Part shown: piece by piece, positions 998 through 21,526 of the stretch | Position numbering within the stretch: position 1 is the first letter of the stretch | Layout: every line of letters begins with the position of its first letter | Assembly (NCBI GenBank): GCA_014240005.1 | Contig: JAAZXT010000033.1 | Location: 1-34,172 of the forward strand | DNA from: Fidelibacterota bacterium | GTDB taxonomy: Bacteria > Fidelibacterota > Marinisomatia > Marinisomatales > Marinisomataceae | Length of the DNA stretch: 34,172 nucleotides | Reading direction: 5' to 3' | Notes under the pieces: generated by a model | Told to the model about the DNA's origin: nothing | The model's database searches: none | What the model saw: the letters and a program-made list of their open reading frames with translations, nothing else | Translations under genes and position numbers: made by a program

Positions 998-1666
998 ATG
1001 TATCTAAAACAACTAGACAAGAAACTTGATGAGTTTCATCTATTAAAACACCCATTCTATGTAGCATGGAATAACGGGAAATTAACCCAAGAAATTTTAC
1101 AAGATTATGCTGAGCAGTATTATCAGCATATTAAAGCATTTCCACGCTATATCAGTGCAACACATTCATTATGCGAAGATATTGAGCAGCGCAAAATCTT
1201 ATTGGATAATCTAAGCGATGAAGAAGATTTTGAGAAGGATCACCCAATGTTATGGAAGCAATTTGCCTTAGCAGTAGGAGCAGATGAATCTGATCTTGAA
1301 ACAATCAAACAAGCAGGATATACAGAAGATATGATTGCAAACTTCTTCAGACTTGCAAGATCTAGCTATGCTGAAGGATTGGGTGCTTTGTATGCTTATG
1401 AACGTCAAGTTCCTGAAATTGCGGATACTAAGATTAAAGGGTTGGTGGATCATTACAATGTTTCATCCGATGAAGGTTTAGAATATTTTGTGGTACATAA
1501 AGACGCCGATGTAGAACATCGCGAACAAAGTGCTATATTAATGAACCAATTGTCTGATGATGACAGAAAACTTGCAGAAGAAGCAGGGATGTCTACAGTA
1601 CATATGTTATGGGGATTTTTATCAGGTCTTTGTGAAAAATATAATATTCCAAGCGAAAGGAACTAG
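998..1666 (+). CDS. CADD-family (PqqC/TENA-like heme-oxygenase fold) di-metal protein, putative folate/pABA synthesis
   Basis: HPFY, EEDFEKDHP, YAYERQVPEIADTK and HKDADVEHRE motifs match the CADD-like iron-dependent family; AAAGGAG RBS just upstream. Confidence 0.85.
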   Translation: MYLKQLDKKLDEFHLLKHPFYVAWNNGKLTQEILQDYAEQYYQHIKAFPRYISATHSLCEDIEQRKILLDNLSDEEDFEKDHPMLWKQFALAVGADESDLETIKQAGYTEDMIANFFRLARSSYAEGLGALYAYERQVPEIADTKIKGLVDHYNVSSDEGLEYFVVHKDADVEHREQSAILMNQLSDDDRKLAEEAGMSTVHMLWGFLSGLCEKYNIPSERN

Positions 1667-2396: not shown

Positions 2397-2924
2397 ATGC
2401 ATATTGACGATATAAAAAAGACGATTACTATAGTTCAAGATTATCCTATCGAAGGGATAGTATTTAAAGACATCACAACTCTATTAGAAGATTCTATAGC
2501 ATTTAAAGCTACAGTTGACTTGATGATAGAGAAGATTGCTCATCTAGAATTTGATAAGGTAGTTGGTGTGGAATCTAGAGGTTTCTTCTGGTCAGCACCA
2601 ATTGCTTACGCACTATCTAAATCATTTATTCTAGCAAGAAAGCCGGGTAAGCTTCCTAGAGAGGCTGCAGAGAAGCATTTCACGTTAGAATATGGAACAA
2701 ACAGTGTTCATATTCATAAAGATGCGATTAGTTCTGGAGATAAAATTCTAGTAGTAGATGATTTAATTGCTACCGGTGGTACTGCAACAGCTACAGCTGA
2801 TTTATGCAGAGAGTTGGGTGCAACCGATATCCATACGTTATGTTTGATTGATTTGCCACATTTAGGCGGATCTAAGAAACTTGCAGAGAAGTATGGTGAA
2901 GTAATTACGATAATTGATTATTGA
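2397..2924 (+). CDS. apt: Adenine phosphoribosyltransferase
   Basis: VVGVESRGFFWSAPIA, ARKPGKLP and PRPP motif VVDDLIATGGTA. Confidence 0.96.
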   Translation: MHIDDIKKTITIVQDYPIEGIVFKDITTLLEDSIAFKATVDLMIEKIAHLEFDKVVGVESRGFFWSAPIAYALSKSFILARKPGKLPREAAEKHFTLEYGTNSVHIHKDAISSGDKILVVDDLIATGGTATATADLCRELGATDIHTLCLIDLPHLGGSKKLAEKYGEVITIIDY

Positions 2925-4747: not shown

Positions 4748-5614
4748 ATGAGTCACATTTCGTTCGCAAAAGACAAGTTGATCCCTACTAGTGAGGTAAG
4801 TCTAAGTATTTCTGATAATTTCTTAGGTGTTATTAGGGGGTATCAAGTATTTACTTTTCTAAAGACAGTTAATGGAGGAAAACCCGTCTTCTTAGATCAC
4901 CACCTTGATAGGGTGTTATCGAATGCACAAACGATGAATATGATTGTAAAGCAGTCTCGTGAAGAGATTAATGATATTATCAATGAAACATTAAATCATA
5001 ACAATTTTAATGAATCAGAATGCAATATTATGATATTATTCGCTGGAACAAAAGCTACTGATATTTCCGGGCTTATTTCCGATAGTCCAGTAGACTTGTT
5101 TGTTGTTATTACTCCAGTAAAGATTTTGCCAGAAAGATATTATCAGGATGGCATTGCTATAGGATTCTTTGAGAATAAACGCCCTGGTAGTGTAGAGTTA
5201 AAAATGCCATATAACTATTTTGGGGGCCTTAAAGCGCAACAAGCATTGGTACAGAATGGTGAATATGATGAGGCACTATATATAAGCAATAATAGAATTT
5301 TAGAAGGAACTACTTTTTCATTTTTTGCAGTAGAAAATGATGGTAAGATTATTACTTCTAAAGCAGATGGAAAAATCTTGCGAAGTGTTACTCGACTCGT
5401 ATTGCTCAGTATCTTTAAAGAACAGAAAATTCATGCAGAAGAAACTGACATGTTTATCGATAGTATTTCTTCATACAAAGAAGCCTTTATTGCATCATCT
5501 AATCGAGGAGTTATTCCAGTACAATCTATTGATGGAAATATGGTGGGTAATGGTCAAGTAGGAGATGTTACTAATCAAGTGATGGCTCTTTATGAAAAAG
5601 CTATTAACTTTTAG
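4748..5614 (+). CDS. Class IV PLP-dependent aminotransferase (BCAT / D-amino acid aminotransferase / ADC lyase superfamily)
   Basis: LDHHLDRV, ELKMPYNYFGGLKAQQAL with candidate PLP Lys, DEALYISNNRILEGTTFSFFAV. Subfamily not resolvable by eye. Confidence 0.85.
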   Translation: MSHISFAKDKLIPTSEVSLSISDNFLGVIRGYQVFTFLKTVNGGKPVFLDHHLDRVLSNAQTMNMIVKQSREEINDIINETLNHNNFNESECNIMILFAGTKATDISGLISDSPVDLFVVITPVKILPERYYQDGIAIGFFENKRPGSVELKMPYNYFGGLKAQQALVQNGEYDEALYISNNRILEGTTFSFFAVENDGKIITSKADGKILRSVTRLVLLSIFKEQKIHAEETDMFIDSISSYKEAFIASSNRGVIPVQSIDGNMVGNGQVGDVTNQVMALYEKAINF

Positions 5615-20089: not shown

Positions 20090-21526
20090 ATGGTAAACAG
20101 AGATTTAATTGAGATTTTTATTGAATTAGCGAGAGAAAAAAATATTGAGCGTTCTGAGCTTGGAACAATTATTGAGCAGCTCTTTTTATTTATTATTGAT
20201 AAAGAAAAAGGCGAATCTGATAATTGTAGTGTAATTGTTAATCTAGATAAAGGTGAAATTGAAATTTATGTGGAAAAAACAATTGTTGAAGAAGTAGACG
20301 ATGATCACTTCGATATTACACTAGAAAGAGCTCTAGAGCTTGAACCAGAGCTTATAGATTTAAAATTAGGAGATACGTTTGTAGAAGTAGTTGATCCAGC
20401 AGATTTTGGTAGAAGATTGGTTGCCAATGCAAGACAGTTTTTAAATAAAAGAACACGTGAAGTACAACAACAATATATCTATGAAGATTATGTACAAAGA
20501 ATTGGTGAGGTAATTATCGGTACTGTACATCAAGTACATAGAGAGAATACTTTTGTAAATATTGAACAAACCGAGTTAAGAATGCCTCGAAATGAGCAAA
20601 TTTTCTCAGAAAGATTTAGAAGAGGAGACACAATCAGAGCTCTTGTTAAGGCTGTAGAGGTTACTCCTAAAGGTCCAGATATTCTGATATCTAGAAGTGA
20701 TGATTTATTTCTTTATAAATTATTCGAAATGGAAGTTCCTGAGATTGAGGATGGTATTATTGAAATTAAAGGAATCGCTAGAAAACCTGGAGAAAGAAGT
20801 AAGATTATTGTTCATTCTATTGATAAGCGAATTGATGCGGTTGGTGCTTGTGTCGGTATGAGAGGAAGCCGTATTCAATCTGTAGTAAGAGAATTAAACA
20901 ATGAAAAGATTGATATTGTTAATTATACTGAAAAATCAGAGGTTTTTGTCACTAGAGCTCTATCACCAGCTAAACCAATTGACTTATATATAGATGATGA
21001 TAGGAAATACTGCGTCGCAATCTTTGATGAAGGTGGCTTAGAAAATGCTGTTGGTAGAAGTGGGGTAAATATAAATTTAGCTTCTAAATTAACAGGTTAT
21101 ACGATTGATGCTTATACCGAAGAAGAGTATGCTGAAGTATTAGTAAATCAAAAAACAAATCTTGATACTTTTAAAGGTATTAAAAAAGGCGTATTAAAGA
21201 AGTTAGCTAGCGCTGATATTGTTAGTGTTGCAGATTACTTAGGAACAAAGAAATTTGTTTTAGTAGATGAAATCGATCTTAGTGGAGATGAAATTAATTC
21301 TATAAGCACTGTTGTAAATGCTTTTATTAGTAGAAACGATGAGCCAGAAGAAGAAATAGTAGAAGAAGTTGCTACAGAAGAAGTAGAAGAAACTCCTGCT
21401 GAAGAAATAGTAGAAGAAGTTGCTACAGAAGAAGTAGAAGAAACTCCTGCTGAAGAAATAGTAGAAGAAGTTGCTACAGAAGAAGTAGAAGAAACTCCTG
21501 CTGAAGAAGTTGAAGAGGAAAAATAA
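20090..21526 (+). CDS. nusA: Transcription termination/antitermination protein NusA with acidic C-terminal extension
   Basis: S1 and KH motifs: RQFLNKRTREVQQQ, SRSDDLFLYKLFEMEVPEI, IARKPGERSKIIV, AVGACVGMRGSRIQSV; operon position before infB. Confidence 0.97.
   Translation: MVNRDLIEIFIELAREKNIERSELGTIIEQLFLFIIDKEKGESDNCSVIVNLDKGEIEIYVEKTIVEEVDDDHFDITLERALELEPELIDLKLGDTFVEVVDPADFGRRLVANARQFLNKRTREVQQQYIYEDYVQRIGEVIIGTVHQVHRENTFVNIEQTELRMPRNEQIFSERFRRGDTIRALVKAVEVTPKGPDILISRSDDLFLYKLFEMEVPEIEDGIIEIKGIARKPGERSKIIVHSIDKRIDAVGACVGMRGSRIQSVVRELNNEKIDIVNYTEKSEVFVTRALSPAKPIDLYIDDDRKYCVAIFDEGGLENAVGRSGVNINLASKLTGYTIDAYTEEEYAEVLVNQKTNLDTFKGIKKGVLKKLASADIVSVADYLGTKKFVLVDEIDLSGDEINSISTVVNAFISRNDEPEEEIVEEVATEEVEETPAEEIVEEVATEEVEETPAEEIVEEVATEEVEETPAEEVEEEK
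21350..21502 (+). repeat. Three tandem perfect 51-bp repeats in nusA encoding EEIVEEVATEEVEETPA
   Basis: Units 21350-21400, 21401-21451 and 21452-21502 are nucleotide-identical; a degenerate fourth start follows. Confidence 0.97.

Follow-up and report, generated by a model that had tools for sequence, protein, structure and literature searches.

A predicted self-sacrificing p-aminobenzoate synthase of the CADD family in a marine Marinimicrobia genome

The question raised by this locus is whether a free-living marine bacterium could supply its folate pathway with p-aminobenzoate (pABA) by consuming a protein of its own. The window (that is, the whole stretch of DNA that was analysed, 34,172 nucleotides) is contig C13 of a draft assembly of a single genome (63 contigs totalling 812,083 bases; 93.5% complete). 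The host is a Marinimicrobia species; among named genomes, its close relatives belong to Candidatus Marinimicrobia/Neomarinimicrobiota, and many of these are labelled as MAGs. At 998..1666 on the forward strand lies an open reading frame, uninterrupted by stops, for a protein of 222 amino acids, which we predict to be a self-sacrificing pABA synthase (CADD/PabS) with a probability of about 0.9, the chemistry being extrapolated from two characterised homologues. That chemistry is known, and the window protein would add another member to the CADD family.

A CADD-family protein and its catalytic residues

The original prediction described the product as a CADD-like protein; family models and structure comparison bear this description out and place it in the CADD family rather than with PqqC or TenA. 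The NCBIfam model TIGR04305 (fol_rel_CADD) matched the protein over its full extent (model positions 1-212 of 212) at 296.9 bits (E 7e-89), against a curated cut-off of 200 bits, whereas the PqqC model TIGR02111 reached 47.8 bits, below its cut-off of 240, and the BesC model 34 bits, far under its own. By sequence, the closest solved chains were CT610/CADD (E 4e-55) and two entries titled 4-aminobenzoate synthase. An AlphaFold model of the protein (pLDDT 94.1, pTM 0.90) found its best matches in the PDB in C. trachomatis CADD (8va9 and 1rcw; TM 0.91-0.92, rmsd 1.2-1.4 A, 44% identity), with PqqC next but well behind, at 20% identity. PqqC (pyrroloquinoline-quinone synthase) has the haem-oxygenase-like fold in common with the window protein; it is a cofactorless enzyme which acts on a small substrate. 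One could imagine that the window protein, too, is an oxidase of a small molecule, of the PqqC or TenA type or another with the haem-oxygenase fold, in which the CADD residues have been kept by common descent; it does match the Pfam families TENA_THI-4 (76 bits) and Haem_oxygenas_2 (79 bits), and structure comparison places PqqC, UndA and BesC in the same fold. Given the gap between the CADD score and those of PqqC and BesC, the much closer fit to the CADD structures, and the invariance of the sacrificial Tyr and Lys described below, we find such an oxidase scarcely credible.

We examined catalytic positions in 30 homologues from a genome search of the phylum and 80 from named genomes, sets which partly overlap (approximately 110 in all). 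In a sequence alignment, Y21, Y134, K145 and Y163 of the window protein correspond to Y27, Y141, K152 and Y170 of CADD, so that the Chlamydia numbering given for the first three in the original prediction proved correct; our CADD numbering agrees with that of PMC11965152. Y21 and K145 also align with Tyr25 and Lys159 of NePabS (NE1434 of N. europaea), and it is these pairs, Tyr27/Lys152 in CADD and Tyr25/Lys159 in NePabS, that are consumed in the two characterised proteins (PMC11965152). The codon of Tyr21, from which the ring and the carboxyl carbon of pABA are predicted to come, is at 1058..1060 (+), and that of Lys145, the predicted amino donor, at 1430..1432 (+); both residues are invariant. 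The di-metal site that had been proposed on E75, H82, E135, H167, D171 and H174 was likewise upheld: these residues align with the CADD metal ligands at positions 81, 88, 142, 174, 178 and 181, make up a three-His, three-carboxylate site, and are invariant among the homologues. Allowing for the alignment offset, Y37, Y41 and W86 are the equivalents of NePabS Y41, Y45 and W99, of which Tyr41 is essential and Tyr45 and Trp99 matter (PMC11965152), and they are candidates for the radical path here. In total, 12 of the 13 catalytic positions do not vary in the homologues, the exception being position 163, which is either Tyr or Phe. Judged from these alignments, a match in residues and family by chance is excluded.

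CADD (CT610; PDB 1rcw, 8va9 and 8vag) resembles the window protein in fold, in the six ligands, in the sacrificial Tyr and Lys, and in its pair of tyrosines, Y141 and Y170. The host death-domain role reported for CADD is not implied for the window protein. NePabS shares with it the sacrificial residues, the ligands and the Y41/Y45/W99 equivalents, but contains a loop of about 10 residues that is absent from the window protein (PMC11965152 and our alignment); PDB entry 9pj4 appears to be NePabS.

In the reaction that we propose, the dimetal centre would react with O2, and the oxidising equivalent would reach Tyr21 by hopping through aromatic residues, for which Y134, Y163, W86, Y41 and Y37 are candidates. 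The side chain of Tyr21 would be cleaved at the Calpha-Cbeta bond, leaving Gly, and the released fragment would be converted to the carboxylate with oxygen from O2; Lys145 would donate its amino group and become aminoadipate. Each protein molecule would yield at most one pABA, which FolP would join to the pterin, and CADD/PabS would stand in for PabA, PabB and PabC, the first two of which are missing from the host genome. Both the C. trachomatis and the N. europaea homologues yield pABA in vitro by self-sacrifice, and ne1434 rescues an E. coli pabABC mutant (PMC11965152). Alternatively, the protein may be a pABA synthase that acts catalytically, or mainly uses another donor in the cell, rather than turning over once. 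In favour of this, NePabS gives fewer than 0.1 pABA per protein in vitro, and its physiological activator is unknown; on the other hand, its activity is not raised by chorismate, tyrosine or p-hydroxybenzoate, and its peptides show that Tyr and Lys are consumed (PMC11965152). As the window protein has the equivalents of both consumed residues, we consider a catalytic synthase very unlikely and prefer self-sacrifice.

Folate need and the missing PabB

The host genome encodes FolP (330 bits) and FolK (121 bits), which implies that pABA is needed, and a cytochrome oxidase (COX1, 491 bits), which suggests an aerobic organism and so matches the requirement of an O2-dependent reaction. The chorismate-binding model PF00425 found nothing in this genome, which means that PabB, TrpE and isochorismate synthase of the PF00425 family are all lacking from it; the same model matched in 14 of 14 controls. 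The PabA/TrpG model TIGR00566, whose cut-off is 121 bits, gave only weak matches, of 68 and 56 bits; the open frames concerned are 360 and 379 amino acids long and, judged by that length, probably encode GuaA and CarA. The absence of pabA and pabB, which the original prediction had singled out as a check on its proposal, is thus what family searches of the 93.5% complete assembly returned. An assembly gap is an unlikely cause, since PabB is missing throughout the genus: among the 20 genomes searched, the only matches to the pabB model were four full-length TrpE proteins. (PabB-type genes were told from TrpE by comparing the pabB and trpE models locus by locus; a higher pabB score denoted PabB, and a trpE score of >517 denoted TrpE.) Chorismate synthase is represented in the host by a fragment at a contig end and in other members of the genus by complete genes, and chorismate is likely to be available. 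Taken together, a folate branch that requires pABA, the lack of PabA and PabB, and the conserved residues indicate that pABA most likely comes from the protein's own Tyr21 and Lys145. Homology and genome context hence support the suggestion that a single-turnover protein is the pABA source of this host, with pABA production itself a prediction.

Of 198 phylum genomes, 42 have a CADD gene that scores above the cut-off. PabB-type genes were found in 1 of 44 genomes with CADD (G075) versus 6 of 22 without it (G018, G083, G087, G090, G096 and G111), a contrast over 66 phylum genomes with a Fisher p of 0.004, in which the 22 CADD-negative genomes are a non-random set and kinship is uncorrected. The CADD gene of G102 seems to be disrupted, but this looks like a sequence error, because the adjoining genes are fragmented too.

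Some relatives appear to obtain pABA by other means. Two members of the genus, G064 and G125, carry FolP and FolK, and neither CADD nor PabB was found in them, so pABA uptake within the genus is possible. Many genomes of the phylum likewise keep FolP and FolK without CADD or PabB, which makes it likely that salvage or some unknown route exists there. Six genomes of the same order (G093, G104, G108, G023, G032 and G068) have this composition, and chorismate synthase was not found in most of these six and the two genus members. It might be argued from G064 and G125 that the window host, too, imports most of its pABA and that its CADD gene is residual or auxiliary. We think this improbable, because the gene is present in 17-18 of the 20 genus members even though many of these are incomplete assemblies, and because, as read from codon comparisons, it is under strong purifying selection: between the window gene and its nearest relative there are 41 synonymous and 8 nonsynonymous codon differences, and the corresponding counts for further near relatives are 60 and 15, and 64 and 17.

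Metal-selector site and gene history

Self-sacrificing synthases of this family differ at two metal-selector positions. NePabS has Phe at both and uses Fe/Fe, whereas the window protein has Tyr at both, Y134 (CADD Y141) and Y163 (CADD Y170; NePabS F177), the codon of the latter lying at 1484..1486 (+); the role of this position is taken from PMC11965152. In NePabS, Phe177Tyr changes the preference from Fe/Fe to Mn/Fe, Phe148Tyr makes the protein cambialistic, and the double substitution (148 and 177) keeps the Mn/Fe preference with an approximately twofold yield (PMC11965152). A review cautions that the choice of Mn/Fe is not evident from the primary ligands (PMC13108848). From the two tyrosines and the NePabS mutagenesis, we predict, by extrapolation from the two studied proteins, an Mn/Fe cofactor for the window protein, which would have been acquired independently of the Chlamydiae; a Chlamydiae MAG sequence (L112) occupies a separate branch of the CADD tree. 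A class I ribonucleotide reductase small subunit (class Ic was sought as separate support for Mn/Fe use) was found in none of the genus members searched, which has no bearing on the prediction. Tyr at both selector positions is also found in a CADD homologue (L089) whose contig bears the label Candidatus Micrarchaeota archaeon; mis-binning is possible there.

The closest relatives of the gene outside its own genus are not in its own phylum. In a scan of named genomes, the window protein was 59-64% identical to proteins of SAR11, a highly abundant group (Pelagibacteraceae and Fonsibacter), and of one marine Coxiellaceae genome, and 36-44% identical to other Marinimicrobia CADD proteins. In the tree, its genus, SAR11 and the Coxiellaceae sequence (from a SAG) form a single clade with support of 100/100, other Marinimicrobia sequences fall into two distant groups, and a constraint making all Marinimicrobia monophyletic was rejected (p-AU 4e-7). 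Horizontal transfer, in either direction, would be the natural reading of this gene tree. No viral CADD copies and no sign of a viral origin were found, the phage matches being PqqC, and the plasmid matches listed, with 22-28% identity, were PqqC or further proteins of the haem-oxygenase fold.

Within the SAR11 order, CADD is present in 26 of 198 genomes. Intact proteins were seen in SAR11 genomes of Pelagibacteraceae and Fonsibacter (L063-L073 and L133-L138), with all catalytic residues in L063-L073. A separate PabB was found in none of five SAR11 genomes tested; four of them (G198-G201) gave one pabB-model match each, in an open frame of 481-494 amino acids that is TrpE-sized by length, and the fifth, like the Coxiellaceae genome, gave no pabB-model match.

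In the 30-homologue set, position 163 is Tyr in each of the 17 proteins from the genus and Phe in the remaining 13, which come from other Marinimicrobia; every SAR11 protein examined has Phe there, as does that of the Coxiellaceae genome. On the tree its state has changed at least 6 times, with the genus a Tyr group nested within Phe sisters; the simplest reading would be that Tyr163 was gained within the genus. One tentative scenario, to which we would give a little less than even odds, is that a horizontally transferred synthase shared with SAR11 subsequently gained a preference for Mn/Fe by a Phe-to-Tyr change in a streamlined, free-living ocean lineage, an independent heterobimetallic origin that may be an adaptation to scarce iron. 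The link between iron scarcity and the Mn/Fe preference is one that we infer. The Mn/Fe preference is so far known only from Chlamydia, and is predicted here for a free-living marine bacterium. The window protein, with Tyr163, and the uncharacterised SAR11 proteins L063-L073, which have Phe163 and fall in the same clade at 59-64% identity, would form a natural pair of enzymes in which to study selection of Mn/Fe versus Fe/Fe. If our reading is true, single-turnover, protein-consuming synthesis of a vitamin precursor is not confined to intracellular and soil bacteria and occurs also in streamlined plankton of the ocean, part of SAR11 included, whose cells are sparing with protein and among which exchange of folate precursors may matter. 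Among open-access papers, we found none on CADD in SAR11 or Marinimicrobia.

Neighbourhood of the gene

In C. trachomatis a folate gene cluster adjoins CADD, whereas in the genus of this marine host the conserved neighbourhood contains no known folate genes; in this respect the window gene resembles that of NePabS, which has an environmental host and lies apart from the folate synthesis genes. CADD is followed across the genus by adenine phosphoribosyltransferase (apt, a non-folate gene, at 2397..2924 on the forward strand), a protein which, from its sequence motifs, we take to have a metallo-beta-lactamase fold, a class IV aminotransferase of the BCAT/DAAT/PabC superfamily (4748..5614, +), and subsequent genes in conserved order. 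The aminotransferase was considered as a candidate PabC and rejected: its best model was D-amino-acid transaminase, its scores were ambiguous and under every curated NCBIfam cut-off, and without PabB there would be no substrate for PabC, so that we do not count it as evidence for one. Within the genus it diverges faster (47-66% identity) than apt and CADD (77-94%). An outer-membrane beta-barrel gene (1669-2328) begins two bases downstream of CADD; it also adjoins CADD in G006, and is not beside it in the other genus members checked. Elsewhere in the window, 20090-21526 encodes what appears by eye to be a NusA-like protein, with tandem EEIVEEVATEEVEETPA-type repeats at its C-terminal end.
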